From SAR202 cluster bacterium (GTDB lineage Bacteria; Chloroflexota; Dehalococcoidia; Lucifugimonadales; Lucifugimonadaceae): a stretch of 59,102 nt of DNA. Location of the stretch: assembly GCA_016872495.1 (NCBI GenBank), contig VGZT01000010.1:1-59102 (forward strand), given 5' to 3'. A model generated the notes under the pieces. That model was given only the letters and a program-made list of their open reading frames with translations, ran no database searches and was not told the DNA's origin. A program made the translations under genes and the position numbers. Below are positions 374 through 51,833 of this stretch, in pieces. Positions within the stretch are counted from its first letter, which is position 1; the number at the start of each line of letters is the position of its first letter.

Positions 374-413
374 ACGCGCCTCTTTCTGAAGGATGAATCG
401 CGGGAGGCAAGCG

Positions 414-2351
414 TTGAGGTCATCTCGTGCAATTCGGCCCTGGATCGCGGTCGCAGGGGCCAGCTTGACGGCGCTCACCATCCTGGCGTGCGGAGGCGGC
501 GCTGAGGCCACCCCGCAGATAATCGTTCAGACGGTCGTGGTCGAAAAACCGGTTGCTCAGACGGTCGTGGTCGAAAAACCGGTTGCTCAAACGGTCGTGG
601 TCGAAAAACAGGTCGAGAAGGTCATGGTGGTCACCGCAACTCCGGTTCAGCCACCGACCTCAACAGCGGTTCCAGCCGCCAAGCCCGCCCCTCCTTCCAA
701 GCAGAAGGCGGGGGAGATCATCTGGGCGGTGAACACGTTTGGCTCCGCTGGCGGAGGTTTCAACGCGAAGGCGCTTTGCTGCTCCTCCAACGCGATGAGC
801 ATCAGCGAAACGCTCTTCAAGACGACCAAGCAGGCCGACGTGTCGCCGTATCTGGCTGAGTCTTGGTCGCTGGACGGGGACGCCAAGTCTGTGACGGTGA
901 AGCTGCGGCAAGGCGTCCAGTTCCACAAGGGCTTCGGCGCAATGACCGCCGACGACGTCGTCTGGAGCTACAACGACTCCAATCCCAGCACCTCGGTGAA
1001 GTTTGGGAGCGGCATCCCCAGCATCACGGACAGCGGAGGGTCGTGGACCGCGCTCCTTGGTACGAACCCTCTGGAGAAGATCGACCCTTACACGGTCAAG
1101 ATCACGTTTACCAACTTCGACCCCCTCTGGCCGATATGGCATTTCGGCTCGGACGGCCTCCAGGCGGGAGTGCTCAGCAAGAAGGCCTTCGACCAGAAGG
1201 GGGCCGATTGGAACACAGATAACGTGGTGGCCACCGGACCGTTCGAGGTGACTACCTTCGTGAGGCAGGACCGCGTGGTAGCTGAAGCAGTCACCCAGCA
1301 TTGGCGCAAGGTGCCGCAACCCAAGAAAATCACGCAGATCCTTGTCCCCGACGAAACCGTCCGGCAAGCGATGATGCTTGCGGGCGAGGCCGATATCGCG
1401 ACGATGGATCTGGGCAAGATACCGGCGATGCAGCGGAACGGGATGACCGCTGTGAGCAACGGTAATGCCAACATCTATTCCATCTGGTTCACGGGCAACC
1501 TGTGGGAGACGACGCACCCGACTACCGGCGTAAAGCTCGACCTCACGACTTACGCTGCTGATCAGCCATGGATCGGTAATCCGCATACCCCGAATGACGC
1601 AAACAACCCGCAGGGCATGGACGACATGGAGCAGGCGCGGCTCGTGCGATGGGCGCTAGCCATGGCAGTCGACCGCGACCTGATTAACCAGCGAGTCGTC
1701 AGCGGACTGGGTTGGGTTGCATACAATCCGTACTTCGACTGGAACCTCAAGGAGTGGAACGGCAAGTGGAAGGTACCCTACGACCCTAAGAAGGCTGGTG
1801 AGTTCCTCGACAAGGCTGGCTACCCGAAGAAGGCCGACGGCATCCGGTTCACCATACCCCTGTTCGGCTTTGAATATCCGCGCGGCGTTCCTCCGGCGAT
1901 CGTTGATGCAGTTGCAGGGATGTGGACGGAAGTCGGAGTTAAGGTCGACGTGTTCCATTACGACTATTCGATTTACCGTCCCAGCCTCGTGGGCAAGACA
2001 TCCGTCATTCCTTATATCGACTGGGATGCTACCGGGACATACTCAAACCATCCGTGGGACTGGCCTCGTGGCAACCAGTTGAGCGCCCTCTCGCGCGGCG
2101 GGAAAAGCCATTCCTTGGAACTTCCCCAGGCCACGCAGGCGCTCATCGAAGCCGGAAAGGAACCGGACCGGGAAAAGCGGATCGCCATTAACAACAAGTT
2201 CGCCGATTTTCTCTACGATTCCCAGGTTGGCGTTGCGACCATCGCGGCAGGCAGGTTCCTGGTCTATAACCCCAACAAGATCGCAAGCTGGCAGATGGAA
2301 CCAGGTATCCGCCAGCCGTTCAACACCCCCGAGAACATCGTCCTCAAGTAG
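414..2351 (+). CDS. Oligopeptide-type ABC substrate-binding lipoprotein (SBP family 5)
   Basis: Extracytoplasmic solute receptor of a peptide/nickel/opine-type ABC importer. A basic n-region, hydrophobic stretch and lipobox ending LTILAC give a lipid-anchored protein. After the Cys comes a Val/Glu/Pro linker with repeats of TVVVEKPVAQ, then a full-length SBP_bac_5 domain of about 530 residues. The TTG at 414 is preceded by GGGAGG with a 6-base gap, so it is preferred over the in-frame ATG at 393, whose ribosome site is too close. It heads an operon with two permeases; no ATPase follows. The ligand is unknown; genes downstream suggest an organic or sugar acid. Confidence 0.9.
   Translation: MRSSRAIRPWIAVAGASLTALTILACGGGAEATPQIIVQTVVVEKPVAQTVVVEKPVAQTVVVEKQVEKVMVVTATPVQPPTSTAVPAAKPAPPSKQKAGEIIWAVNTFGSAGGGFNAKALCCSSNAMSISETLFKTTKQADVSPYLAESWSLDGDAKSVTVKLRQGVQFHKGFGAMTADDVVWSYNDSNPSTSVKFGSGIPSITDSGGSWTALLGTNPLEKIDPYTVKITFTNFDPLWPIWHFGSDGLQAGVLSKKAFDQKGADWNTDNVVATGPFEVTTFVRQDRVVAEAVTQHWRKVPQPKKITQILVPDETVRQAMMLAGEADIATMDLGKIPAMQRNGMTAVSNGNANIYSIWFTGNLWETTHPTTGVKLDLTTYAADQPWIGNPHTPNDANNPQGMDDMEQARLVRWALAMAVDRDLINQRVVSGLGWVAYNPYFDWNLKEWNGKWKVPYDPKKAGEFLDKAGYPKKADGIRFTIPLFGFEYPRGVPPAIVDAVAGMWTEVGVKVDVFHYDYSIYRPSLVGKTSVIPYIDWDATGTYSNHPWDWPRGNQLSALSRGGKSHSLELPQATQALIEAGKEPDREKRIAINNKFADFLYDSQVGVATIAAGRFLVYNPNKIASWQMEPGIRQPFNTPENIVLK
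531..612 (+). repeat. 30-bp tandem repeat in the lipoprotein linker
   Basis: Units at 531-560 and 561-590 plus a partial unit from 591 encode the repeated Val-Glu-Lys-Pro linker behind the lipobox. The two full units differ only at the last base, so copy number could change by slippage in steps of ten residues without shifting the frame. Confidence 0.85.
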
Positions 2352-2377
2352 CCGCAACGAATCGATGGCCACCACGA

Positions 2378-2414
2378 CGGCCGGGCTTCCACATTCCTCC
2401 GGGAGGCCCGGCCG
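2378..2414 (+). promoter_or_regulatory. Hairpin between binding protein and first permease
   Basis: The arms CGGCCGGGC (2378-2386) and GCCCGGCCG (2406-2414) form a 9-bp perfect stem with a 19-base loop. There is no T-run, so it looks like an mRNA stabiliser or partial attenuator, a common way to make more binding protein than permease, rather than a full terminator. Confidence 0.5.
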
Positions 2415-2455
2415 GTCCTCGGTCGCGGGCAATGCATTCGCGGGTATTACCTTCG

Positions 2456-3403
2456 ATGCGTAGATTCCTTGTCCGGCGCGGGGTATTCGCGGTCTTCACG
2501 CTCTGGGGAGTGACGATCATCGTCTTCGGCCTGTCTCGCCTGGGTCCTGACCCTCTTCTGATGTTCGTCCGCGAGAGCTCTTACGGCCTGAGCGAAGAGA
2601 CCGCGACAGCTTTGAGAGAAAAATGGGGACTGGACCGCCCGCTTGCCGTTCAGTACTTGATCTGGCTTGGGCGTGTAGCACAGGGCGACCTGGGAGAGAG
2701 CATCTCATCCGGCCGCAAGGTCACGACCACGATTCGAGAGACCGTCGGCAACACGCTTCAGCTTGGTGTAGGCGCGTGGCTTCTCGCCACCGTGACCGGA
2801 ATCCCGCTTGGCGTACTGTCCGCGGTAAGAAGGGGCAGCACCGCCGACTACGCCGGGAGAACGGTAGCACTCCTCGGCCAGGCAACTCCCCCGTTTTGGC
2901 TCGCCCTGCTGGCGATCCTGATATTCGCGATCGCATTCGGCTGGCTACCGGTGGCGACGAAACTTCGAGAGGGGCCCGTCTGGGAGCAGGCCAGGTACTT
3001 CATCCTGCCTACCGTCGTTCTCGCATTCCACCCGATGGCAACGTACCTTCGCTTGACCCGGTCGGCGATGCTCGAGGTCCTTGACTCCGAGTACATCAAG
3101 CTGGCACGAGCAAAAGGGGTTAAGGCACCCAAGGTCCTCTGGAAGCACGCCTTTCGTAACGCGCTGATCCAGCCTGTCACGACGTCGGCGCTTATCTTCG
3201 CGTCATTCATTACCGGCGCCATCTTTGTGGAGACAGTCTTCGCATGGCCGGGCCTGGGTCGGCTTGCCGCACGCGCGACCTTCGATAACGACTTCCCGGT
3301 ACTCGCGGGAGTGGTGCTCTTGTTCGGGGTGATCTACCTCGTCCTGAATTTCCTCGCCGACGTGTCTTATGTCGTGATTGATCCCAGGATCCGGTTAGAC
3401 TGA
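2456..3403 (+). CDS. ABC transporter permease, DppB/OppB type
   Basis: Inner-membrane permease subunit of the peptide-type importer. The start at ATG 2456 (MRRFLVRRG) matches the usual N-terminus, a basic tail then TM1; an ATG at 2432 is also in frame. It has the family features: an N-terminal TM, a periplasmic stretch with GLDRPLAVQY, further TM segments, and the cytoplasmic coupling (EAA) loop around EYIKLARAKGVK-KVLWKHAFRNAL. It ends with the typical YVVIDPRIR tail. The second permease begins 3 bp after the stop, so the two are co-translated partners. Confidence 0.92.
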   Translation: MRRFLVRRGVFAVFTLWGVTIIVFGLSRLGPDPLLMFVRESSYGLSEETATALREKWGLDRPLAVQYLIWLGRVAQGDLGESISSGRKVTTTIRETVGNTLQLGVGAWLLATVTGIPLGVLSAVRRGSTADYAGRTVALLGQATPPFWLALLAILIFAIAFGWLPVATKLREGPVWEQARYFILPTVVLAFHPMATYLRLTRSAMLEVLDSEYIKLARAKGVKAPKVLWKHAFRNALIQPVTTSALIFASFITGAIFVETVFAWPGLGRLAARATFDNDFPVLAGVVLLFGVIYLVLNFLADVSYVVIDPRIRLD

Positions 3404-3406
3404 GCG

Positions 3407-4306
3407 ATGGCGACCGCAAAGGCTGCCAGAATGTTGCGCATGGAACAGCCGGGCCTCGCGCTGAGGTCCTGGCAGCTCGTCCGCCGGTATCCTGTCGTAC
3501 CTGGCGCAATACTCGCAGCCTTGGTCGTGTGTGCGATCTTCGCTCCGCTTGTCAGTCCGCATGATCCGGGAAAGCGCGATCTGAGGCTGCAAGACATTCC
3601 GCCGGCCTGGATGAAGGAGGGAGACCGAGCCTATCTGCTGGGAACAGACAACCAGGGCCGGGATGTCCTCAGCAGGATCCTCTATGGAGCCAGGATCTCC
3701 CTCCTCGTATCAGCCATCGCGGTGACCGTCGGCCTTGGCGCGGGTACCGCGTCCGGGTTGTTGGCTGGTTATTTCGGCGGCTTCACCGACGAGGCGATCA
3801 TGAGACTTGTGGACCTGTGGTCCGCAATTCCGTTCCTCTTGCTCGCACTCGTGGTCGCGGTGACCGCAGGGCCCAGCCTTATTACGGTCATCTTGCTTCT
3901 GGCTTTTGCGGGTTGGTCCGCCGGGGCTAGGAATATCCGCGGCGAGGTGCTCGCTGTCAAGACACGCGACTACGTAGCATTCGCTCGCCTTTCAGGGGCG
4001 TCTCACCTGCGGGTAATGATCCGGCACATTCTCCCCCAGGTTCTCCACGTAATCCTCGTCATAACGACGCTGCGCACGGGTGGACTGATCATCGCCGAGG
4101 CGGGTCTCAGCTTCCTGGGTGTCGGCGTGCCGGCATCTACCCCGACGTGGGGCGTGATGATCGGTGAGGGTCAGCGCTTCCTGCTAACCAACTGGTGGCA
4201 GTCGATATTCCCGGGCGTAGCGATCTCGCTGACAGTGGTTTCGATGAACTTCATCGGAGACTGGCTCAGGGACTATTTCGACCCGCATCTGAGACAGACC
4301 AGGTAG
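3407..4306 (+). CDS. ABC transporter permease, DppC/OppC type
   Basis: Second membrane subunit, 299 residues, pairing with the preceding DppB-type protein. Seen are the N-terminal TM, the LGTDNQGRDVLSRILYGAR motif typical of OppC-type permeases, the EAA loop near DYVAFARLSGASHLRVMIRHILP, and a C-terminal DYFDPHLR tail. No ATP-binding subunit follows; the operon passes instead to sugar-acid enzymes, so an ATPase must come from elsewhere, possibly the pair at 49.8-51.8 kb. Confidence 0.92.
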   Translation: MATAKAARMLRMEQPGLALRSWQLVRRYPVVPGAILAALVVCAIFAPLVSPHDPGKRDLRLQDIPPAWMKEGDRAYLLGTDNQGRDVLSRILYGARISLLVSAIAVTVGLGAGTASGLLAGYFGGFTDEAIMRLVDLWSAIPFLLLALVVAVTAGPSLITVILLLAFAGWSAGARNIRGEVLAVKTRDYVAFARLSGASHLRVMIRHILPQVLHVILVITTLRTGGLIIAEAGLSFLGVGVPASTPTWGVMIGEGQRFLLTNWWQSIFPGVAISLTVVSMNFIGDWLRDYFDPHLRQTR

Positions 4307-4333
4307 GGCCTTCGACAGGAGCACCGACGGTCG

Positions 4334-4843
4334 GTGAAACGGATAGACGGCATAGTGCAGATCATTCCCACGCCGTTCCACTCAAATCGACAACATTCGA
4401 ATTTCTGCCGGGCGAAGCTGGAGGAACCGCTGATGGCCGACAAGGTCATTGCGATCCGCGAACGGATCGGGAGCCGGGCAGGCATTCTCGAAGGCTGGGG
4501 CGGGATGTACTTGCTGGAATTGATGCCGCACAGGATCTGCGGGGTGATGCCAGGCGTGCCGCTGATCGAACTCCCTGCCATGGCATACGGGCTGCGCAAG
4601 TCAGGCAGGAATGCCGAAACCGTACAGCTGAACGGCACCGTCTCGCCGTTCATCAGCTTCACCTTGCAGAACCTCGAAGTCTTCTGGCACGCGGAAAAAC
4701 GCCTGCCGGCCATGCGCGGTCTCCTGGAGAGTCCGCCGGTCCGGAACTCCACCTGCACACTTTCAGACCGGAACGCCGAATACGCGAATCTCCTTTGCGA
4801 GCAAGTTCTTGATGTCATCGAGAAAGCGGGGAACAGCTATTGA
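4334..4843 (+). pseudogene. Internally deleted DapA-family (dihydrodipicolinate synthase-like) gene
   Basis: The first 17 residues (MKRIDGIVQIIPTPF) match the extreme N-terminus of the DapA/NAL lyase family, usually about 300 residues. The reading then jumps to FCRAKLEEPLMADK, which corresponds to the region around the Schiff-base lysine near residue 160, followed by a normal C-terminal half (GGMYLLE, CGVMPG). About 140 internal residues, including the catalytic tyrosine strand of the barrel, are missing with the frame kept. The barrel cannot fold normally, so I call it broken, although the frame is open. Its stop overlaps the TTG start of the next gene. Confidence 0.7.
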
Positions 4844-41368: not shown

Positions 41369-41932
41369 TCAGAACAGCTTCCGGCCGCCCATGGCCTCCA
41401 CCAGCGCCGAGCAGTTCTCCAACGATTGCTGGGCATCGAGGCCCTGGCACAGCATGACTACATTGCCGAATATCACGTAGTCCCAGTACTTGGGGCCTGG
41501 CGCCTGACGGGAGCCGGGGCTGGAGACATCCGTGACCCCGCCGGCAAGCCAGCGGTCGCGCTCACCTTCTTTCCAGCTCTGCGTGTCCTTGCGTGCCTTC
41601 ATGCCCTCGCCCACGCCCTCCTCCGCCAGCGGCTGACCGTCTCGGACGGCCACTTCGTGCGACGGGTACAGCCTGATCTCGTAGTCTTTCCGCGCCGAGG
41701 GATTCGGACCGAAGAACATGAGGTAGGCGGAGGTCGCGCCCCGCAGTCCGGTGACGTCGTACTGCTTGCCCTTCTTTGCGCCGGCCGCGCTTATGTCATC
41801 GAACGTGAAAACGCGTTCAGCAGGGATGACCCTTTCAACCGTGACGACCGTGTCAGCCTTTCCCCCGGAACAGGCGATCGCAAGCGCCGCCAGGCCCGCG
41901 AGAGACAGCACAAGCGCCGCGTGTCCGGTCAT
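41369..41932 (-). CDS. Lipoprotein A of a seven-paralog cluster
   Basis: 187 residues from ATG 41932 behind GGAGG. Signal with lipobox LAIACS, then the shared fold: VFTFDDISAAGAKKGKQYDV, GATSAYLMFFG, a YEIRLYPSHEVAV strand-helix, and a C-terminal YVIFGNVVMLCQG followed after 13 residues by Cys (SLENC). Two C-terminal cysteines conserved across the cluster may pair in a disulfide. It follows lipoprotein B by 29 bp in one operon. No known domain is recognised. Confidence 0.8.
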   Translation of the reverse strand: MTGHAALVLSLAGLAALAIACSGGKADTVVTVERVIPAERVFTFDDISAAGAKKGKQYDVTGLRGATSAYLMFFGPNPSARKDYEIRLYPSHEVAVRDGQPLAEEGVGEGMKARKDTQSWKEGERDRWLAGGVTDVSSPGSRQAPGPKYWDYVIFGNVVMLCQGLDAQQSLENCSALVEAMGGRKLF

Positions 41933-41961
41933 CGTGTCACCTCCGCTGCATCCCGGTCGCC

Positions 41962-42600
41962 TCAAGAAGCCTTCAGCCGGTCGGCGAGCAAGCCGCACCC
42001 CGCCTTCGCGTCGGACGGTTTGGCTTCGCAGAGGATCACAAGGTTGCCGACCACCAAGAACTCCGCGTACGTCGGAACCCTGCGCGGGCAAAACGGCTGG
42101 GGGTCGAAGGCCACCCGGTGGGACTCGCCTGCGGCCGCCAGTGAGGCGACCCGCTCCAGACCACAGCGCTCACTGCCCCCCAGGCCGCCGAATGAGTTCT
42201 CGATCAGGCAGAGCTGGGAATCGCGACCCGGGGAGAGGAGGTAGGGTGCGCGGGGGCTGGGAAAACCGGCGCACTTCGTACGTTCGACTCCCGGGGCGAA
42301 CAGCCCTTCTGCGGTCAGGGCAACCTGTGCCGCCCCCGCTCGTGCGCCTTCGTCCCGGGCTTCCGCAGGGGACCGGTAGACGATGACTGCCACTTCCCTA
42401 CCGTCGAGAAATCCCCACTCGGCGCCGGTCGCCGGGGCGAAATCGGTCTGAAACCCTCCCTTGCTCTTCCAGCCGAGGGATCCCAACGATTCGGCGCTGT
42501 AGGTGCGCTGGGGGCCGGCGGCGGCACCCGGGGCGTCGCCAGAGCACCCGATCAAGACCAGGAAGACCAGGCCGATGCCCGCGACCCATGCCCTCATCAT
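41962..42600 (-). CDS. Lipoprotein B, the most divergent paralog
   Basis: 212 residues. Signal ends LVLIGCSG. It keeps the family frame (YSAESLGSLGWKSKGGF, EWGFLDGREVAVIVYRSPAEA, FLVVGNLVILCEA with GCGLL) but has a long Cys-rich insertion between the central strand and the C-terminal motif (TKCAGF, SQLCLI, SERCGLE, PFCPRR). The extra cysteines suggest additional disulfides or a ligand site. First gene of a two-gene minus-strand operon with A, divergent from C-D-E across a palindrome-rich gap. Confidence 0.75.
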   Translation of the reverse strand: MMRAWVAGIGLVFLVLIGCSGDAPGAAAGPQRTYSAESLGSLGWKSKGGFQTDFAPATGAEWGFLDGREVAVIVYRSPAEARDEGARAGAAQVALTAEGLFAPGVERTKCAGFPSPRAPYLLSPGRDSQLCLIENSFGGLGGSERCGLERVASLAAAGESHRVAFDPQPFCPRRVPTYAEFLVVGNLVILCEAKPSDAKAGCGLLADRLKAS

Positions 42601-42720
42601 GCTGTGCCTCGAGAAAGGAGAAAAAGAGAAATCATGAGGCGAACTTGCGACGCTCGCAAGGGGCGTTGTGAGCTGCTGACGACGGCAGATTGTACTCAGA
42701 TTGTGCTGTGGGCGGAAGAT

Positions 42721-42759
42721 GCATAATTATGCGCGGGCGCAACGGCGCCCACAATTGTG
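42721..42759. promoter_or_regulatory. Palindrome-rich divergent promoter region
   Basis: Between divergent lipoprotein operons lie a perfect 12-bp palindrome GCATAATTATGC (42721-42732), a 6-bp inverted repeat GGGCGC-AACG-GCGCCC (42735-42750) and a perfect 10-bp palindrome CACAATTGTG (42750-42759). On the minus strand TTGTGG and CATAAT occur 17 bases apart around the middle element, a plausible promoter for B-A. These look like operators for one shared regulator. Confidence 0.55.
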
Positions 42760-42821
42760 CGCTGGTGCACGCGTACTTGTGAAACACGCGCAGTGACTTG
42801 ATCTTTCGGAGCAGGATTCGC

Positions 42822-43424
42822 ATGAGACTAACGATCGATTCCGCAATCCATCGTTCGCGGCTGTTGCTTCTTTTGACTGCCGTCGTGGCCGCCCTGGCCG
42901 TCGCCTGTGGCGGCGAGGGCACCACGGCAGTCAACCCGGCTGGTCAGCCCGCCGCATCGGGCACGGACTCTTTTGCTCGGATCCGCCCGGCGCGCGCTTA
43001 CGAGGTCGACGAGGTCATCGCCGCAGGCTTCAAGCGGTCCAAGACTTACGACGTTGCGGAACTCACGGGCGCAAGCGCCGCGCTGTACGGCTTCTATGGC
43101 AGCGATCCTTACAACCGCAAGGAGTACGAGATCCGTTTCTACCCCACCCATGACGACGCCGTGAAGGTTGGATTCCCGGCATCCAAGGAAGCATGGGGAC
43201 CGGATGCCAAGCTATCCGAAGACGATGCAACCTGGAAGGTCGGGCTGACCGAGCGACGGGAGTGCCAGGGCAACGTACGCGGGTCGCATCACGTCGGGAA
43301 ATGCCTGAACCCCAAGTACCTCGACATGGTGGTATACGGCAACATGGTGATCCTCTGCCAGGGCCGGGAGGTCGCGGACTCTCGCCAGAACTGTGAGGAC
43401 CTGCTCAAGGTCCTTCCGAAGTAA
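42822..43424 (+). CDS. Lipoprotein C of the paralog cluster
   Basis: 200 residues from ATG 42822 with AGGA 5 bases upstream. Long signal ending ALAVACGG (lipobox). Core: YEVDEVIAAGFKRSKTYDV, GASAALYGFYGS, EYEIRFYPTHDDAV, then a Cys-containing stretch (RECQGN, GKCLNPKYLDM) and VYGNMVILCQGRE with SRQNC. First of the plus-strand operon C-D-E; D starts 10 bp after its stop. Confidence 0.8.
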   Translation: MRLTIDSAIHRSRLLLLLTAVVAALAVACGGEGTTAVNPAGQPAASGTDSFARIRPARAYEVDEVIAAGFKRSKTYDVAELTGASAALYGFYGSDPYNRKEYEIRFYPTHDDAVKVGFPASKEAWGPDAKLSEDDATWKVGLTERRECQGNVRGSHHVGKCLNPKYLDMVVYGNMVILCQGREVADSRQNCEDLLKVLPK

Positions 43425-43434
43425 GGGTAGCGCG

Positions 43435-44001
43435 ATGGCTGTCTCGAGGAATTCAAGGTCCTGGATGCGCATCAGAACATCGATCGTCGTTGCCGCGCTG
43501 CTCGCTGCCACCGCGTGGACCGCCTGCGGCGGCGAGGCGACCGTGGCGACCCCAACCGCACAGGTCGTACAGAGGATCTTCCCTTCCACCAGGATGTATT
43601 CCGTCGACGACCTCAAGGCGGTCGGACTCAAGGTCATGCACGTCTATGACGTCGGCGGCCTGCCCCATGCCCAGTCAGCGATCCACGGGACCTTCGAAAG
43701 GCTCGAGTTTGAAGCGCGCTTCTACGCTTCACAGGCCGACGCAGTCGCGCATGGGGAGGCCCTCGCGGATGAAGTATCCGGACCGGACGCGATCGTCACC
43801 GGGCCAGACGTGAGGTGGGAGGAAGGGGCAGCCCACCGCAGGCTCTGCAGCCGTGCGGCCCAGACCCCGCATTCTGGCTGCAGCTACTCCGCACGCTACG
43901 GCGATTACATGATCCGGGGCAACATGGTCTTGCTCTGCGAGGGGCAGACCTCCGAGCTGGCGATGAAGGCGTGCGGCGATCTGCTCGAGGGCGTGCCCTG
44001 A
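43435..44001 (+). CDS. Lipoprotein D of the paralog cluster
   Basis: 188 residues from ATG 43435 behind AAGGG. Lipobox in AATAWTACGG. Core elements YSVDDLKAVGLKVMHVYDV, EFEARFYASQADAV, RRLCSRAAQTPHSGC, YMIRGNMVLLCEGQ with MKAC. It shares with C and E the extra upstream Cys pair. Its stop TGA overlaps a CTG that may start E. Confidence 0.8.
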   Translation: MAVSRNSRSWMRIRTSIVVAALLAATAWTACGGEATVATPTAQVVQRIFPSTRMYSVDDLKAVGLKVMHVYDVGGLPHAQSAIHGTFERLEFEARFYASQADAVAHGEALADEVSGPDAIVTGPDVRWEEGAAHRRLCSRAAQTPHSGCSYSARYGDYMIRGNMVLLCEGQTSELAMKACGDLLEGVP

Positions 44002-44531
44002 CGCGCAGCGGCGGCGTGCTTGCCTTGTTTGCCATCGTTGGCTGCCTTGCGGCCGCATTGGCCTGCACGAGCGCCCCCGGAGCCATTTCGACCGGGCAGC
44101 CCACGAACGAACGTCCGAGGACCACCGCCTCGGATCGAATCTATCACCCGGATGACCTCAGGAACGCGGGAGTCAAGATAGCCCGCTCGTACGACGTGTC
44201 GGAGCTGTCCGGCGCCACGGCCGCCCTGAACGGGTTCCTGAACCGGAAAGAGTACGAGGCGAGGTTTTATGCCGACTTCCCCCGCGCCTCAGGGACCGGC
44301 GCCGCGGCGGCGGCCCTGGTGACCGGCAAGGATGCCGCGGTGACGGGCAAAGTCCCGTGGGAAGAGGGGGCCACGGACCGCCGGAAATGCGTGGGCGGAA
44401 TCAACGCCAACTGCGTCGCGAAGTACGGGGACTTCATCGTCTACGGCAACCTGGTCTTACTGTGCGAGGGTCGGGACTCGGCAACTTCGCTCGATACCTG
44501 CTTTGAGCTCATATCGTTGTTGCCCAGGTAA
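43998..44531 (+). CDS. Lipoprotein E of the paralog cluster, probable CTG start
   Basis: Core YHPDDLRNAGVKIARSYDV, TAALNGFLNRKEYEARFYAD, RRKCVGGINANC, FIVYGNLVLLCEGRD with LDTC. The signal is LTRSGGVLALFAIVGCLAAA followed by LAC. The CTG at 43998 overlaps the previous stop (CTGA), has GAGGG about 7 bases upstream, and supplies the Arg expected in a signal n-region, so I prefer it (177 residues). The first standard in-frame start, GTG 44016, lacks a ribosome site and removes the Arg. Confidence 0.72.
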   Translation: MTRSGGVLALFAIVGCLAAALACTSAPGAISTGQPTNERPRTTASDRIYHPDDLRNAGVKIARSYDVSELSGATAALNGFLNRKEYEARFYADFPRASGTGAAAAALVTGKDAAVTGKVPWEEGATDRRKCVGGINANCVAKYGDFIVYGNLVLLCEGRDSATSLDTCFELISLLPR

Positions 44532-44549
44532 CGCCCGCTTGGCGCGTGC

Positions 44550-45032
44550 TCATGGCAGGCGCGCGATGAGCTGTTCGCAGACCGCCAGTTCTACCTCACA
44601 CAACAGGACCAGATTGCCCACAATTGCGTAGGCGTGGTAGCGATTGACCGCCGGGATCAGGTAGTCAGTCTGTCCCGGGCGTCGTGCGATGGCCTCGCCG
44701 GCCGGCCCGGCGCCGTAGAGCGCGGCATCCTCGTGCGAGTCGTAGAGCCAGACTTCAACGTCCCGCTGGTTGAAGAATCCGAAAGCGGCCGCGCGCGCAT
44801 TCGGCAGCGAGTCGACTTCAAAGTCCTTGTTCTTCTTCCAGCCAGCGCCTTGCACATCGGCGATGGTGAAGGTGCGGTCGACTGCGAAGACGGCCGAACG
44901 GCCCGGCTCGGCCACGTTGGCTGGTACCTTGCCTGGGGTCGCCGGCGCTTCTTCGCTGCCGCACGCCATTGCCACAGCTATCATCAGCGCGGCGAGCCCG
45001 CCGGCGCGACGGCCGAACCGAAGCGGGGTCAC
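44550..45032 (-). CDS. Lipoprotein F of the paralog cluster
   Basis: 160 residues, GTG start overlapping the stop of G (GTGA), so coupled to it. Signal ends IAVAMACGS. Core FTIADVQGAGWKKNKDFEV, ARAAAFGFFNQRDVEVWLYD, AIVGNLVLLCEVELAVC. This is the compact form: the segment between the two halves is shortest here, without the additional Cys of C, D and E. Convergent with E, 18 bp apart. Confidence 0.8.
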   Translation of the reverse strand: MTPLRFGRRAGGLAALMIAVAMACGSEEAPATPGKVPANVAEPGRSAVFAVDRTFTIADVQGAGWKKNKDFEVDSLPNARAAAFGFFNQRDVEVWLYDSHEDAALYGAGPAGEAIARRPGQTDYLIPAVNRYHAYAIVGNLVLLCEVELAVCEQLIARLP

Positions 45033-45577
45033 TTGAGGGCGGCGAGGAGCGCCTCGCAGGAGGCGACCTCTACTTCGCAGAGCATCACCAGGTTGCCGGC
45101 AACCAGGTAGGCGTTGTACCCGGTGATGCCTTCGTGACCGGCCCCGCGATCGCCACCGCCTCTCCGCTTTGGCGCTTGAGTGGCTTCGTACGCCGGTGCC
45201 ACGCCCAGCTCGAGGGCGGCGGCGTGCGTCTCGTAGAACCTGACCTCAATGTCTCGCCGGTTGAAGAACCCGTACCAGGCGGCACGCGCTCCCGGCAACG
45301 ACTCGTACGCAAGCTGCTTCGACTTCTTGTAGCCGGCGCGCTCGAGTTCATCGATGGTGATCTCCCGGTCGGCCATAACGACCCTTGCACCGCCGTCGGG
45401 GATCAAGGACCCGGCCGCCGTCTCATGCGACGGCCCGGCTTCCCGGGCTTGGTCGACCGTGGAGCATGCGATCAACAGCAGCGCCGCGGAGGCGCTGACC
45501 GCAGAAATGATCCGCCGGTGCGCACAGCGGCCATGTGCGCTCCCCCAGGAAACAGCAGAGGCCCCGTTGTTGCGCAA
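45029..45577 (-). CDS. Lipoprotein G of the paralog cluster
   Basis: 182 residues from TTG 45577, supported by AGGAGG exactly 5 bases upstream. The signal is LLLIACS with an Arg-rich n-region. Core ITIDELERAGYKKSKQLAYE, ARAAWYGFFNRRDIEVRFYE, LVAGNLVMLCEVEVASC. Closest to F; the two form a minus-strand pair. Its ribosome site and start codon are buried in a 12-bp hairpin that also lies just after the substrate-binding-protein gene. Confidence 0.78.
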   Translation of the reverse strand: MRNNGASAVSWGSAHGRCAHRRIISAVSASAALLLIACSTVDQAREAGPSHETAAGSLIPDGGARVVMADREITIDELERAGYKKSKQLAYESLPGARAAWYGFFNRRDIEVRFYETHAAALELGVAPAYEATQAPKRRGGGDRGAGHEGITGYNAYLVAGNLVMLCEVEVASCEALLAALK

Positions 45578-45604: not shown

Positions 45605-47458
45605 TTACTTGACCGCTTTCAGGTTGTGAAGGACCAGCGACCACGTCAGGTGCCACGAGGCCTCGTTGACGTAGCCGTCGGTCTCTCCGCCCAGCGGCCA
45701 GTTGGTCCACCGGGTCTCGTTCAAGACGATCCGGTGGTAGAACTCGAGGACCGGGACGTCCGGCAGCTGCGGCAACCAGATCTCCATTGCCTTGCGCCAG
45801 ATCGCCTGGACCTGCTTCTCGTCGGCGGTAGCCGCCATCTCGTCTGTCAGCTTGTCCCAGGCCGGGTTTTCCCAGCGGTAGAAGTTCACCTGGTGACCAC
45901 CGGGGATGTTCACGCTGGCCGACTGGTAGAGCTTCATCGTGAAGTACGGGTCGCTCACCGAGCCGCCGTGCCCGAACATCAGGCACTCGAAGTTGCCTTC
46001 TGCCATCCGGCTTGAAGCATCCGGGGGCTGGATGTAGCTGGCGTTGATGCCCTGCTTCCGCAACTGCTCAGCGGTCAAAGGCCCAAGATCCACCCAGGGG
46101 GTGAAGCCGATGATCTGGCAGTTGATCGTGTTGTTCGCCTTGTCCCGCCACATCCCGTCCGCGCCCTTGGTGAAGCCGGCCTTGGTCAGGCGCTCATTGC
46201 CCTTGGCGGGGTTGAACTCGGTCGTGTCGTACTTCGCCAGGAGGTCCTTTACGGATTCGAAGTACTTCTTGAGCGGCGGGTACTGCGGCATCGTCAGCGG
46301 GTTAAGCGCTGCGGCGCCGTCGTACCCCTTCTGGCTGAGCTCCTTGCGGTCAAGGTAGTAGCTCAACGCCCAGCGCACGTCCGGGTTGTCGAATGGGCCG
46401 AACTTGCCGCTGTTGTTGAAAGCCAGCGAGACCGGCCACCAGTCAACGTAGCCGTACGGGGAGTTCTTCCCGGTGTGCGTGGTCAGCTTCGCGTTCTGGG
46501 CCAGCGTTTCCTTGATCGTGCGCGGCGTGGTCATGGCGCCGTAGTCGACGTCGTTCTTGATCAGGGCCTGCGCTGTGATCGTCTGGTCACCGGTGCTCGG
46601 GAGGTAGATGACCCTCTCGACCTGCGGCAACTTTCCGAACTGGCCGAGGTCTGCCTGGCCCACGCCCCACCACGAGTCGCGGCGGTCGATGATCTTCTGC
46701 TCGGGCGATCCCAGCACGACCTTCCATGCACTTGTAGTCACGGGGAGGCCAGCCGCCGGATCGTACGCCTTGAACGTCGTCCAGTCCTTCCCGCTGAAGA
46801 TGTGCTCTGGGACGATGTAAACACCGATGTCGAACTTGTAGGCCATGAAGTAGAAGAACCGCGGATCCGGCCGCTTCAGGTTCAGCTTGACCGTGTGGCT
46901 GTCGACCTTCTCGGCGTTGTCGAGGACGTTCGCCACGTCCTTGCCCCACCGCACCGCTTCCTTGAGGCCCTTCAAGGTGTTGAGTGTGTAGACAACGTCG
47001 TCCGCATTGAACTCCTGCCCGTCGCTCCACTTGACGTCTTTCCGGAGCTTGATGGTCAGGGTCTTGTTGTCGTTCGTGTACTCCCAGCTCGTCGCCAGCC
47101 ACGGAATCATCTTGTCGTCGAACGCGCTGAAGAACGCGAGCGGCTCATAGATGATGTTCGGTCCGGTCTGGTGGTTGGCACCGATGGCATAGGGGTTCCA
47201 GAGTTCGAAGTCCACGTGGCGGCCTTCCGAGCCACCGAGGAACGAGACCAGGGTCCGGTCTCGCGCGACTTCCTTGAGCTTCGTCGAACCCGCAGGCGCA
47301 GCGGTCGCAGCTGGCGCAGTGGTCGCAGCTGGCGCAGTGGTCGCAGCCGGTTTAGCCGGTACGGCGGTTGGTTCCGCCTTCTTGCCGCCACATGCGATCA
47401 CCGCGATCAGAGCGATCGCGAGCAGCGCCCCAAGCGCTAAGGTCAGTCGTACTCGCAT
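45605..47458 (-). CDS. Oligopeptide-type ABC substrate-binding lipoprotein (SBP family 5)
   Basis: 617 residues. Lipobox in IAVIACGG, an Ala/Thr-rich linker with 6-residue repeats (ATTAPA), then the SBP_bac_5 fold (DVKWSDGQEFNADDVVYTLNTL is the conserved lobe-I segment). It is divergent from the permease-ATPase operon starting at 47799 and is its likely receptor. The 3' flank holds the hairpin that overlaps lipoprotein G. Confidence 0.9.
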   Translation of the reverse strand: MRVRLTLALGALLAIALIAVIACGGKKAEPTAVPAKPAATTAPAATTAPAATAAPAGSTKLKEVARDRTLVSFLGGSEGRHVDFELWNPYAIGANHQTGPNIIYEPLAFFSAFDDKMIPWLATSWEYTNDNKTLTIKLRKDVKWSDGQEFNADDVVYTLNTLKGLKEAVRWGKDVANVLDNAEKVDSHTVKLNLKRPDPRFFYFMAYKFDIGVYIVPEHIFSGKDWTTFKAYDPAAGLPVTTSAWKVVLGSPEQKIIDRRDSWWGVGQADLGQFGKLPQVERVIYLPSTGDQTITAQALIKNDVDYGAMTTPRTIKETLAQNAKLTTHTGKNSPYGYVDWWPVSLAFNNSGKFGPFDNPDVRWALSYYLDRKELSQKGYDGAAALNPLTMPQYPPLKKYFESVKDLLAKYDTTEFNPAKGNERLTKAGFTKGADGMWRDKANNTINCQIIGFTPWVDLGPLTAEQLRKQGINASYIQPPDASSRMAEGNFECLMFGHGGSVSDPYFTMKLYQSASVNIPGGHQVNFYRWENPAWDKLTDEMAATADEKQVQAIWRKAMEIWLPQLPDVPVLEFYHRIVLNETRWTNWPLGGETDGYVNEASWHLTWSLVLHNLKAVK

Positions 47459-47798
47459 TTGCCAACCTCCCTGAAACCCGTAAATACCGTCCAGACCGGC
47501 CGTTCAGTCAATGGCGCCAAACAAAGAGCCTGCTCGCCTGATGCGCGCCAGTCGTTAGCCCGGCATTTTGAACCCAAACGGGCATGGAGTCAATATTCGG
47601 ATCATACGAAGACGCTTCTTGCCGATTTCGTATGGCAATGAAATACGGTGGGTTTCGAAGGCACGGTTGATCTTTGTAGTGGAGTCGACCACAATATTTA
47701 CCCTCGCTCGTTTTGGGAGCGAACGGTTTACAGGCGGACCATCCTTGACAGAAATTGTGGTCGAACGGCCTTCCGGCACGTCGGCCGCGGCCCGGCGC
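47459..47798. promoter_or_regulatory. Divergent promoter region of the third ABC system
   Basis: A 340-base gap, clearly more AT-rich than its surroundings, separates the receptor from the permease operon. It contains TTGACA at 47745-47750, a GTGG-N6-CCAC inverted repeat around 47684 and an AATATT element near 47694, and presumably holds promoters for both directions. An in-frame GTG at 47757 could extend the permease N-terminus. No gene is seen. Confidence 0.5.
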
Positions 47799-48833
47799 AT
47801 GCGATTCGCTCAGCGGTTCTTCGTGGCGGTCGTCGGAAACTACGTGTTCCGGCGAGTGCTCTTCTTCCTGTTCGTCGTCTGGCTTGCCAGCACCGTCATC
47901 TTCATCATCCCTCGACTGTCGGGCCAGGATCCGGTCAAGGAAAAGCTCCTGCTCGAGGCACAGCGGGGCGGCCACCTCCAGTCCGGCTTCGAAGACATGG
48001 CGCGCACCTACCAGAAGCGTTTCGGCCTCGACCGACCGATCTGGATCCAGTACCGGAACTTCATTCTTGACCTGGCACAGTTCGATCTTGGCCCGTCGAT
48101 CGCCTTCTTCCCGCGGACCGTCAACGATATCCTGATGGACTCGCTGGTTTGGACCATCGGGTTGCTCGGGACGGTGACGATCCTCTCCTTCGTGATCGGA
48201 ACGCTGTCGGGAGCTCTGCTGGGTTGGCCGCGTGCGCCGGGGTACTTCAAGTACCTGTTCGGGCCCCTGCTGACGCTTTCGGCGATCCCGTTCTACCTGC
48301 TGGCGCTCTTGCTGGTGTTCTTATTCGCCTTCCGTTTCAGCATCTTCCCGCTCTTCGGTGGATATGGCATCGGCAAGGTACCGGACTTCAGCCTCGACTT
48401 CGCGCTACAGGTATTACGCCATGCCATCCTCCCGGCGATGTCGATCATCCTGGCCTCGATCGGCTTCTGGGCGCTCGGGATGCGCGGCATGATGGTGACC
48501 ATGCAGGGCTCCGATTTCATGGTTCAGGCGGAGGCCAAGGGCCTGAAAGCGGGTCGAATCTTCCTGCGCTACGCGCTGCGTAACGCCCTGCTGCCGCAAA
48601 CCACGGCGCTGGCGCTCTCACTCGGCACGGTCCTGACCGGCGCCGTCCTGGTCGAAGTCGTGTTCAGGTACCCGGGCCTCGGGAACACGCTTTACCAGGC
48701 GATCCGCCTGAGCGACTTCTTCATCATCCGGGGCTTCGTGTTCGCGGTGATCGTCTCGCTGGCGCTGGCAACGCTGATCGTAGACATCACCTATCCGCTG
48801 CTCGATCCGCGCGTCAAGTACCGAAAGGGCTAG
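47799..48833 (+). CDS. ABC transporter permease, DppB/OppB type
   Basis: 344 residues from ATG 47799 (MRFAQRFFVAVVGNYVFRRV); a GTG at 47757 is also possible. Features: TM1, FGLDRPIWIQYRNFI, the EAA loop DFMVQAEAKGLKAGRIFLRYALRNALLP, and YPLLDPRVKY at the end. This and the orphan permease at 51.8 kb share the longer periplasmic first loop, unlike the other two DppB-type proteins, so they form a distinct subgroup. Followed after 8 bp by its partner. Confidence 0.92.
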   Translation: MRFAQRFFVAVVGNYVFRRVLFFLFVVWLASTVIFIIPRLSGQDPVKEKLLLEAQRGGHLQSGFEDMARTYQKRFGLDRPIWIQYRNFILDLAQFDLGPSIAFFPRTVNDILMDSLVWTIGLLGTVTILSFVIGTLSGALLGWPRAPGYFKYLFGPLLTLSAIPFYLLALLLVFLFAFRFSIFPLFGGYGIGKVPDFSLDFALQVLRHAILPAMSIILASIGFWALGMRGMMVTMQGSDFMVQAEAKGLKAGRIFLRYALRNALLPQTTALALSLGTVLTGAVLVEVVFRYPGLGNTLYQAIRLSDFFIIRGFVFAVIVSLALATLIVDITYPLLDPRVKYRKG

Positions 48834-48841
48834 GACCTTAG

Positions 48842-49762
48842 ATGGCGACCACCTACATAGAGCCAGTCGTCAAACCCGGCCCCCAGAACTGGGTCGAGCG
48901 CAACCGTTTACGGATTCTCCCCATCTACCGGTACATGCGCCGCAACCCATCGCTGGTCTGGGGTATCGGGATACTGCTTTCCCTGCTGCTGTTCGTCGGG
49001 TACGGGACGCTGTTCTACCCGCACGAACGCTTCCGGCCGCTGTCGGCCGACGTTCGTCTGCCCCCCAGCACGACTTACCCGTTCGGGACCGACACCCAGG
49101 GGCGCGACATCTTCGCGGTCATGGTGCGTGGCATCCCGCTCACTCTGCGGATCGGCTTGATCGCCGGCGGGATAGGCCTCGTGCTGGGGACATCGCTCGG
49201 GTTTATCGCCGCCTACTACGGAGGCTGGGTCGACGCCGCGATCCGAACGGTCGTGGATGTAGGACTGACGATCCCAGGGCTCCTGATCCTGATCCTGATC
49301 GCGGTGAACGTGAAAGGCGGGCTTAGCGTCGACCAGATGGGCCTCGCGGTGGCAACGGTCGCCTGGGTCCATCCGGCGCGCACGATCCGCTCACAGGTCC
49401 TCGTGATGCGCGAGCAGCTGTATGTGGAGATAGCCAGGCTCTCAGGGGTAAGCGGGCTGGGGATCGTCTTCCGGGAGATGATGCCTAACCTGATGCCCTA
49501 CCTGGCGGCCAGCTTCGTGGGATCAGTCGGGGCGGCGATCCTGGCGTCGATCGGCCTCGAGGCTCTCGGCCTGGGCCCCTTCGACAGCCCGACCCTCGGG
49601 ATGACCGTGTACTTCAACATCGTGTTCTCGTCGGTCGTGGTCGGCATGTGGTGGTGGCTGGTGCCGCCAATAGCAGCCATGGCCATGATCTTCGTCGGCC
49701 TGTTCCTGATCGCCTCGGGACTCGATGAATGGGCCAACCCGCGATTGAGGAAGCGCATTTGA
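48842..49762 (+). CDS. ABC transporter permease, DppC/OppC type
   Basis: 306 residues. N-terminal tail and TM1, FGTDTQGRDIFAVMVRGIP, EAA loop near LYVEIARLSGVSGLGIVFREMMPN, and DEWANPRLRKR at the end. Its stop overlaps the TTG start of the first ATPase gene (TTGA), so permease and ATPase translation are coupled. Confidence 0.92.
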   Translation: MATTYIEPVVKPGPQNWVERNRLRILPIYRYMRRNPSLVWGIGILLSLLLFVGYGTLFYPHERFRPLSADVRLPPSTTYPFGTDTQGRDIFAVMVRGIPLTLRIGLIAGGIGLVLGTSLGFIAAYYGGWVDAAIRTVVDVGLTIPGLLILILIAVNVKGGLSVDQMGLAVATVAWVHPARTIRSQVLVMREQLYVEIARLSGVSGLGIVFREMMPNLMPYLAASFVGSVGAAILASIGLEALGLGPFDSPTLGMTVYFNIVFSSVVVGMWWWLVPPIAAMAMIFVGLFLIASGLDEWANPRLRKRI

Positions 49763-50787
49763 CATCGCTCACCGCCGCGACTGCGGCCAGATCCTCCGCC
49801 TCATCCGAACACTCCCTGGTCGTCGAAGACCTGCGGGTGCACTACGACACCCCTGAAGGCGTCATCAAGGCGGTCGACGGCGTCTCCCTTGCGCTGAAGC
49901 CGGGTGAACGCCTGGCGCTGGTAGGCGAGTCCGGAAGCGGGAAGTCCACGCTGGCGATGGCCCTGATGCGCCTGACCAAGGCGCCGGGCCGGATCGTTGC
50001 CGGCCATATCTACCTTGGCGGCAAGGACATCACCCTCCTCGAAGAGCCGGAGATGCGGCAGCTTCGTCTCAACGAGATCGCCCTGGTCCCACAGGGCGCC
50101 ATGAACTCCCTGAACCCGGTGATGCGCGTCAAGCACCAGATCATTGACGGCATCCTCGACCACGTTGCAGACCGGAAACAGACGCCCGACAGCCACGAGC
50201 TGGAAGAGCGGGTCAACCGCCTGCTCGCCCGGGTCGGGCTATCACCGGAAGTGGGAAGGATGTTCCCGCATGAGCTGAGCGGGGGGATGAAGCAGCGGGT
50301 AGCGATGGCGATCGCCATTTCATTGAGCCCCCGGGTGATCGTTGCCGACGAACCCACTAGCGCGCTCGACGTGGTGGTCCAGCGGCAAATCATGCAGACC
50401 CTTGGGCGGCTTCAGCAGGGCCTTGACGCGGCCGTGATCCTGATCGGTCACGACATGGGCCTGGTCGCGCAGTTCGCAAACCGGGTCGGGGTCATGTACG
50501 CCGGCAAGCTGGTGGAGCTCGGACCCGTCCAGCAGATCTTCACCGAGCCGCTGCACCCTTACACGAAGCTGCTGATCGAGAGCCTGCCGAACCTGGAAGA
50601 GAAGAAGAAGTTCATCGGGATCCCCGGCCTGCCGCCGACGCTCCTGAGATTGCCATCTGGCTGCGTGTTCCACCCGCGCTGCCCGAGCTTCATCAAGGGC
50701 ACGTGCGAAACCGTCGCCCCGCACTACCAGGAAGTCCGGCCCGAACGTGAAACCTCGTGCCACCTGTACGCCGGGGTGCGAGCATGA
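49759..50787 (+). CDS. ABC transporter ATP-binding protein, DppD/OppD type
   Basis: 342 residues from TTG 49759, with GAGG 8 bases upstream. Walker A GESGSGKST, Q-loop VPQGAMNSLNP, signature LSGGMKQR, Walker B VIVADEPTSALD, H-loop LIGHDMGL, and the C-terminal oligopeptide domain with CVFHPRCPSF, which in this family can carry a cluster-binding Cys set. It pairs with the next gene in a heterodimeric ATPase. The only OppD-type ATPase in the window. Confidence 0.93.
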   Translation: MTSLTAATAARSSASSEHSLVVEDLRVHYDTPEGVIKAVDGVSLALKPGERLALVGESGSGKSTLAMALMRLTKAPGRIVAGHIYLGGKDITLLEEPEMRQLRLNEIALVPQGAMNSLNPVMRVKHQIIDGILDHVADRKQTPDSHELEERVNRLLARVGLSPEVGRMFPHELSGGMKQRVAMAIAISLSPRVIVADEPTSALDVVVQRQIMQTLGRLQQGLDAAVILIGHDMGLVAQFANRVGVMYAGKLVELGPVQQIFTEPLHPYTKLLIESLPNLEEKKKFIGIPGLPPTLLRLPSGCVFHPRCPSFIKGTCETVAPHYQEVRPERETSCHLYAGVRA

Positions 50788-51833
50788 CCGCGCTGCTCGA
50801 ACTCCGTAACGTTTCGAAGCTGTTCGGGGGCGGTTTCTTCAGCGGGCGTCCCCCGTTGCACGCGCTCGACGGCATCACATTCTCGATCCCGGAGGACCGC
50901 CCGACCATCACTGCGATCGCCGGCGAAAGCGGGAGCGGCAAGACGACCCTTGCCAGAATCCTCCTCGGGATCGCGACGCCCTCTGCGGGGCAGGTCCTTT
51001 ACCGGGGGAAAGACGTCGCCAGGATCTCGGGCGCCGAGCGCAAGCGGTTCCGACTGGAAGTACAACCGATCTTCCAGGACCCGTTCGAGTCCTACAACCC
51101 TTTCTACAAGGTCGACCACGTCCTGACCACTCCGGCGCGCAACTTCAAGATAGGCAAGAGCAAGGCAGAGCGGCGCTCCCGCATCGAAGAGGCGCTCCAC
51201 GCCGTTGGGCTGCAGCCTGAAGAAACGCTGGGGCGCTTCCCACACCAGCTGAGCGGCGGCCAGCGCCAGCGCGTGATGGTGGCGCGGGCGCTGCTCCTGA
51301 GGCCCCGCATCCTCCTGGCTGACGAACCGGTGTCGATGGTCGACGCTTCCCTGCGAGCGACCATCCTGGACTCCGTGTACACCCTGAACCGGACGCACGG
51401 GATCTCGGTCATCTACATCACACACGACCTGACGACGGCGTACCAGGTCAGCGACAACATCATCGTGCTCTACCGGGGATCGGTCGCCGAGGCCGGTTCC
51501 GTGGAGCAGGTCATCAAGCAGCCGAAGCACCCGTACACGCAGCTACTCGTTCAGTCGATCCCGCGCCCCGACCCTCGAAAGCTCTGGGGAGACGTCCCCG
51601 CGCGCGGCGATGCCGAGGCCCTGGGCGAGGCGGTCGGCTGCAAGTTTGCCGACCGTTGCCCGTTCGTCATGGACGCGTGCCGGTCGGCCGTCCCGCCGCT
51701 TCATCACATCGATCCCCACCGCGTGGCCAGCTGCTTCCTGTATCGCGATTCGAAGGTAGTGGCCGAGCAGGACATTGCGGGAGTGTTTGCGCCCCGGGCA
51801 GACGCAGCGCGGACGGGACCGGTCCGCGCCTAG
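50784..51833 (+). CDS. ABC transporter ATP-binding protein, DppF/OppF type
   Basis: 349 residues from ATG 50784, overlapping the previous stop (ATGA). Walker A GESGSGKTT, FQDPFESYNPF, signature LSGGQRQR, Walker B ILLADEPVSMVDASL, YITHDLTTAYQ, and the C-terminal CKFADRCPF motif. Together with the preceding protein it powers the third importer and may also energise the two ATPase-less systems in this window. Its stop is shared with that of the convergent permease through a CTAG tetramer. Confidence 0.93.
   Translation: MTALLELRNVSKLFGGGFFSGRPPLHALDGITFSIPEDRPTITAIAGESGSGKTTLARILLGIATPSAGQVLYRGKDVARISGAERKRFRLEVQPIFQDPFESYNPFYKVDHVLTTPARNFKIGKSKAERRSRIEEALHAVGLQPEETLGRFPHQLSGGQRQRVMVARALLLRPRILLADEPVSMVDASLRATILDSVYTLNRTHGISVIYITHDLTTAYQVSDNIIVLYRGSVAEAGSVEQVIKQPKHPYTQLLVQSIPRPDPRKLWGDVPARGDAEALGEAVGCKFADRCPFVMDACRSAVPPLHHIDPHRVASCFLYRDSKVVAEQDIAGVFAPRADAARTGPVRA

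Follow-up and report, generated by a model that had tools for sequence, protein, structure and literature searches.

Why does a bacterium carry, side by side, seven related genes for small lipoproteins, and what do their products have to do with the ATP-binding cassette (ABC) importer encoded next to them? The question is raised by positions 41369–45577 of contig VGZT01000010.1, a stretch of 59,102 nucleotides (the window) from a SAR202 cluster bacterium of the GTDB family Lucifugimonadaceae. SAR202 bacteria, which abound in the ocean, are believed to feed on resistant dissolved organic matter; to our knowledge, their enzyme expansions have been well studied, whereas substrate capture has not. 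The seven genes, A to G, encode members of the Pfam family DUF6810 (PF20650), and the answer that we favour, tentatively and with rather less than even confidence, is that the array supplies a set of extracellular ligand-binding domains, anchored in the membrane and not interchangeable with one another, which act together with the neighbouring importer of the SBP_bac_5 type. Direct support exists for the family assignment, the lipoprotein signals, a common predicted fold, an old orthologous array, the link to the importer, purifying selection and a set of conserved polar residues. The set of surface lipoproteins is large, old and lineage-restricted, is fixed beside an importer and is fused to transporter permeases; the proposed role would give DUF6810 its first function. 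The genes are:

41369–41932, minus strand: A, DUF6810 lipoprotein, long form without the extra Cys pair; basal to L3 and later positions in the array tree (PF20650 162 bits, E 1e-47)
41962–42600, minus strand: B, divergent DUF6810 lipoprotein with a Cys-rich insert (PF20650 23.5 bits; profile without window sequences, shuffle control and phmmer relatives below)
42822–43424, plus strand: C, DUF6810 lipoprotein, long form with the extra Cys pair, lineage L2 in the tree (PF20650 159.8 bits; AlphaFold2 model below)
43435–44001, plus strand: D, DUF6810 lipoprotein, long form, lineage L1 in the tree (PF20650 115.5 bits)
about 43971–44531, plus strand: E, DUF6810 lipoprotein, long form, lineage L1 in the tree (PF20650 105.6 bits)
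44550–45032, minus strand: F, DUF6810 lipoprotein, short form, clustering in the tree with short forms adjacent to substrate-binding-protein genes (PF20650 47.7 bits)
45029–45577, minus strand: G, DUF6810 lipoprotein, short form, directly downstream of the binding-protein gene, a conserved position (PF20650 63.8 bits; AlphaFold2 model below)

The start codons of the seven open reading frames (ORFs) are our choice; E probably starts at a GTG within the 3' end of D. The initial annotation, made from the letters alone, had described seven paralogous genes with a lipobox and a shared core, arranged in three operons, and both descriptions hold: a lipobox follows the hydrophobic signal in all seven proteins (AIAC, LIGC, AVAC, WTAC, ALAC, AMAC and LIAC), and the transcription units are B-A (minus strand), C-D-E (plus strand) and G-F (minus strand), the first two being tightly spaced and the start of F overlapping the stop of G by GTGA. 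Since G follows the binding-protein gene (45605–47458) on its own strand, the last unit is probably better written as binding protein-G-F.

Six of the proteins (A, C, D, E, F and G) score above the curated PF20650 cut-off of 25 bits, with matches that span most or part of the 141-position model, and B falls just below it through a match to the C-terminal part only. A profile built exclusively from the sequences of other genomes recovers exactly A to G from among all ORFs of the window, with E-values of 6.7e-52 (C), 1.3e-50 (A), 1.3e-47 (D), 2.4e-41 (E), 1.2e-29 (G), 5.3e-28 (F) and 9.7e-16 (B); the shared core is, thus, far beyond chance. The profile match leads us to count B as a divergent member of the family on sequence grounds, despite its sub-cut-off Pfam score. 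In a shuffle control, the best of 500 shuffled versions of B reached 2.0 bits, compared with 53 for B itself, and phmmer finds relatives of B at no fewer than eight other SAR202 loci. The proteins were at first assigned to no recognised family, whereas the profile search places six of them in DUF6810, with B as a relative; the family is catalogued but unstudied, being listed in Pfam as of unknown function. NCBIfam has no model for these lipoproteins, nor does PADLOC have such a family, and a search for DUF6810 in the collection of papers covered found no mention of it. The array, the importer link, the short, long and Cys-rich forms and the fusion to FtsX-ankyrin proteins are described here from the present data.

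The long forms are marked by a W-x-E-G...R-R segment that the short forms lack, and roughly half of them have a second Cys pair, which in the window is present in C, D and E, as the initial annotation had it, and absent from A, F and G; a third, Cys-rich form includes B, whose insert had likewise been noticed. Across 240 full-length domains, the polar residues K, E, R, Y, H and N are 91–99% conserved: in both main forms, a Lys is retained in 97%, the residues of an E-x-R-x-Y motif in 95, 93 and 99%, and a His in 91%, to which can be added a G-N pair (91 and 98%) and the C-terminal Cys pair (95% each). The lipobox column is Cys in all 223 of the domains that could be aligned across the signal, and a strict lipobox regular expression matches 180 of the 240. 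Because the Glu, Arg and Tyr alternate along a single predicted strand, they should point to one side of it, and the conserved Lys, E-x-R-x-Y and His may together make up a binding site.

The age of the array is evident from a tree of 94 array members, in which the array positions form separate clades that span genera: E and D of the window fall in L1, C in L2, F and G among the short forms, and A at the base of the other long positions, although some of the window branches are long and their exact placement is uncertain. At most positions, the positional orthologs are 76–91% identical between the genomes compared, whereas paralogs inside one genome are mostly 29–46% identical. The ratio of nonsynonymous to synonymous substitution rates (dN/dS) for positional orthologs is mostly 0.02–0.15, with dS often near saturation. 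These comparisons show a conserved array of considerable age that evolves under purifying selection, with some lineage-specific additions (for example, L3/L4 in Lucifugimonas). Recent tandem amplification is ruled out by the clustering of positional orthologs across genera, and diversifying selection by the dN/dS values, so that two earlier suggestions, of local amplification and of surface proteins under selection (if diversification is meant), are not supported. With them goes most of the appeal of an arms race, in which surface antigens or phage-receptor decoys would have been diversified: many paralogs with a variable middle segment are what it would predict, but the low dN/dS, the stable positional orthology across genera and the lack of any match to PADLOC defence-system models leave it highly improbable.

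The second strand of evidence concerns the neighbouring transporter, whose genes are:

45605–47458, minus strand: SBP_bac_5 substrate-binding lipoprotein (PF00496, E 1.5e-58; nearest solved structures TM1223 and others, mostly oligosaccharide binders)
47568–48833, plus strand: ABC importer permease 1 (BPD_transp_1; PF00528, E 1e-27), divergent from the binding-protein gene, a conserved adjacency
48842–49762, plus strand: ABC importer permease 2 (PF00528, E 1.8e-22)
49729–50784, plus strand: ABC importer ATPase 1, OppD-like (PF00005 and PF08352, oligo_HPY)
50751–51830, plus strand: ABC importer ATPase 2, OppF-like (PF00005 and PF08352)

Together, these constitute a complete importer of the SBP_bac_5 type, a kind that comprises the Opp/Dpp/Nik and oligosaccharide branches; we know of no such importer of which DUF6810 is a component. 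In 16 distinct genomes whose arrays have at least three members, a binding-protein gene of one family adjoins the array. In every case, the adjacent DUF6810 gene is a short form that lies 4–184 bp downstream of the binding-protein gene on the same strand; the long forms run towards this unit, and a permease gene diverges on its far side. Orthologs of the binding protein at 60% identity or more occur in six of 10 DUF6810-positive genomes of the family and in none of six DUF6810-negative ones (Fisher one-sided p about 0.03, for small numbers of related genomes). The initial annotation had spoken of a peptide importer, which is doubtful: the best PDB matches of the binding protein are TM1223, which we take to be an oligosaccharide binder, and mannoside- and chitin-oligosaccharide-binding proteins of the same family 5 (about 1e-25 to 1e-34), compared with about 1e-13 for DppA, and NikA-like and DppA-like models match it far below cut-off. 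As the solved relatives are mostly oligosaccharide binders and sugar-acid enzyme genes (galactonate-dehydratase-like and DHDPS/KDG-aldolase-like) adjoin the array, a peptide appears not to be the likeliest substrate. The idea that the lipoproteins are accessory binding proteins was a reasonable guess, to which the conserved importer link lends weight; the binding itself is presumptive. The window also encodes, at 390–4809 on the plus strand, a second binding protein and permease set of the same SBP_bac_5 family, with no DUF6810 gene beside it.

The confident AlphaFold2 models of C (predicted local distance difference test, pLDDT, 93.2; predicted template modelling score, pTM, 0.88) and G (pLDDT 87.7; pTM 0.82), the two proteins that were compared, each consist of one alpha/beta domain with the same order of elements; they have, therefore, a common predicted fold rather than unrelated ones. 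In a second structure comparison (VIA), the top match to C was the PknH sensor domain (4esq; Z 5.4, root-mean-square deviation (rmsd) 5.7, 123 residues), followed by TiME (7cu9; Z 5.0, 117 residues), these being the sole matches with more than 110 residues aligned; for G, 4esq ranked third (Z 5.1, rmsd 4.4, 105 residues) and was the only row with more than 100. The remaining rows, mostly kinase N-lobes over 75–88 residues, lie within 1 to 2 Z units. The two top ranks count as one kind, since TiME is Rv3705c, whose PknH-like sensor domain also occurs in small mycobacterial lipoproteins (PMC4118811). The predicted topology is, thus, similar over nearly the whole DUF6810 domain to that of the PF14032 kind; unlike PknH and TiME, however, DUF6810 comes from a different phylum, has no kinase and shows no sequence match, with none of 87 members matching PknH_C (PF14032) in Pfam at E-values up to 10. 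A direct search for PknH_C members in Chloroflexota and in two mycobacterial plasmids, run with no positive control that responded, returned none and carries no weight either way. PknH_C domains are marked by two disulfides and a V-shaped ligand cleft; of the Cys pairs in DUF6810, the C-terminal one is present in 95% of domains and the second in roughly half of the long forms. Given Z scores under 8 and the lack of sequence support, the resemblance is a lead only.

It does, nevertheless, raise the prospect that the lipoproteins are extracytoplasmic sensors or regulators of the PknH-sensor type, in which ligand binding would control transporters or signalling rather than feed the importer. Besides the PknH and TiME ranks, and the domain's sharing among small mycobacterial lipoproteins, the occurrence of DUF6810 inside FtsX permeases would suit such a role; against this, Z scores of this size, with other folds so close behind, may mean just a common arrangement, and no recurrent kinase or receiver gene was noticed among the neighbours of the array. 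We regard a sensory role as unlikely. Combining the two ideas, DUF6810 could be a chloroflexotal branch of the PknH-sensor/TiME fold, and the old array could encode the different subunits of a single hetero-oligomeric complex at the cell surface, which would convey nutrients through the surface layer to the importer coupled with it; this conjunction is very unlikely, although, if true, the complex would have no known counterpart among the nutrient-capture devices of monoderm bacteria.

Returning to ligand-binding domains that serve the importer, the lipidated domains would sit under or in the surface layer of a one-membrane cell; related cells in culture are monoderm, with an S-layer-like coat and no peptidoglycan genes (PMC10444878). 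There, they would bind a nutrient or a related molecule, most probably a carbohydrate or sugar-acid oligomer, at the putative site on the open face of the sheet, where the conserved Lys, E-x-R-x-Y and His are found, and would then either hand the ligand to the binding protein or signal its presence. The binding, the class of ligand, the hand-over and the location of the site are what we infer; an uptake role is favoured by the sugar-acid enzyme genes that adjoin the array and by the DUF6810 domains within FtsX-type transporter permeases. The same cell envelope would also suit structural proteins, namely subunits held by a lipid anchor that fasten the surface layer or give it its pattern, the array encoding the different subunits of one assembly and its link to the importer being a chance association frozen by descent. 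Maintenance of the positions as separate lineages, as expected for subunits of a complex, and the high copy number agree with this. By contrast, orthologous single copies are scattered among a number of conserved but unrelated loci, several genomes of the same GTDB family lack DUF6810 altogether, FtsX permeases contain the domain as a fusion and the conservation of polar residues points to a site. We give a structural role a low probability.

A number of observations also weigh against a role in uptake. Many DUF6810 genes are single and distant from any importer; in two DUF6810-positive genomes (G004 and G008), a search with this binding protein found nothing at E 1e-60; and the long-form array, which converges on the binding-protein unit, lies outside its operon. 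The conserved polar residues could have a structural role. Moreover, the match to a ligand-sensing domain is weak, and a Foldseek search of the PDB with the C and G models gave nothing below E 0.18, and so no significant solved relative; its rows were mostly kinase N-lobes with a partial sheet in common, and the short form matched 4esq with an E-value of 0.35. A viral structure library yielded no significant match, nor did profile searches started from A2, A3 and protein A turn up a relative among PDB sequences.

The distribution of the family is narrow. The genome from which the window derives has 10 DUF6810 copies, seven of them in this array, and the family is present in 16 of 40 relatives, every one of which belongs to the same GTDB family. 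Mapping of copy numbers and neighbours in these relatives, which the initial annotation had proposed, revealed a maximum of 31 copies, in a genome of 1.3 Mb (followed by 21 in each of a 1.5- and a 2.1-Mb genome, and 18 in a closed 3.09-Mb genome), in addition to the importer adjacency described above. Across the order, DUF6810 occurs in 51 of 250 genomes, 49 of them in the one GTDB family; in an even sample of 301 Chloroflexota it is found only in the window's own genome; and the 80 loci that came out of a pattern-seeded scan of 84,980 species are all labelled Chloroflexi, Dehalococcoidia or SAR202. DUF6810 is, therefore, nearly restricted to the single GTDB family to which the cultured SAR202 group I bacterium Candidatus (Ca.) Lucifugimonas belongs. 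This restriction and the old, importer-linked array are what is new beyond the initial annotation, and are, in our view, the most interesting part. As Ca. Lucifugimonas marina is in culture and carries the array (CP046147, 1,804,189–1,807,563), the question is directly testable. Two genomes from other families of the order, G056 and G098, have one and three DUF6810 matches, respectively, one of them very strong (E 6.4e-64); transfer or assembly contamination is possible.

Large, old paralog sets are familiar in these bacteria, as in the enolase superfamily (COG4948), FMNO (COG2141) and the ring-hydroxylating dioxygenases; unlike these, the DUF6810 proteins are extracellular lipoproteins and, by annotation, not enzymes. 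We considered whether DUF6810 tracks the enolase expansion and dropped the idea, as genomes of the family without DUF6810 also hold 25–60 enolases. SAR202 paralog surveys (PMC6946804, PMC10444878) rank COG categories, and the passages available from them do not mention DUF6810, which was presumably overlooked because it has no COG.

Outside the array, many of the single copies are orthologs at fixed places, for example after a 2-hydroxyacid dehydrogenase gene. In about ten genomes (loci L120, L124-L127, L129, L131, L134, L135 and L137), a single short-form gene lies between a same-strand major facilitator superfamily (MFS) transporter gene and a uvrA-like gene, which makes this a second transporter-linked orthologous locus. 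A few copies contain in-frame stops (G014:C195:17782-18183, G022:C70:1431-1820, G022:C19:1753-2076 and G005:C11:147923-148060), so some single or array copies may be decaying.

Fusions of DUF6810 to short or partial proteins of 260–490 residues were discarded, as they are mostly ORFs read through upstream of the true start, and two kinds look real. In L151, no ABC ATPase gene was found in the 5.6 kb preceding the FtsX-type gene. The first kind comprises FtsX-type permeases of 1478–1519 residues from four genomes, in which ankyrin repeats and one or two DUF6810 domains lie between the permease halves, with a second FtsX-like protein encoded just upstream:

L094:1-4557, L098:3436-7905, L101:3400-7905 and L139:3060-7493: FtsX-ankyrin-DUF6810 permeases

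The second consists of three lipoproteins (L095:5248-6423, L096:5272-6465 and L107:387-1655), in which an N-terminal extension of about 240 residues, without a Pfam match in L096 and L107, places regularly spaced Cys residues ahead of the DUF6810 domain.

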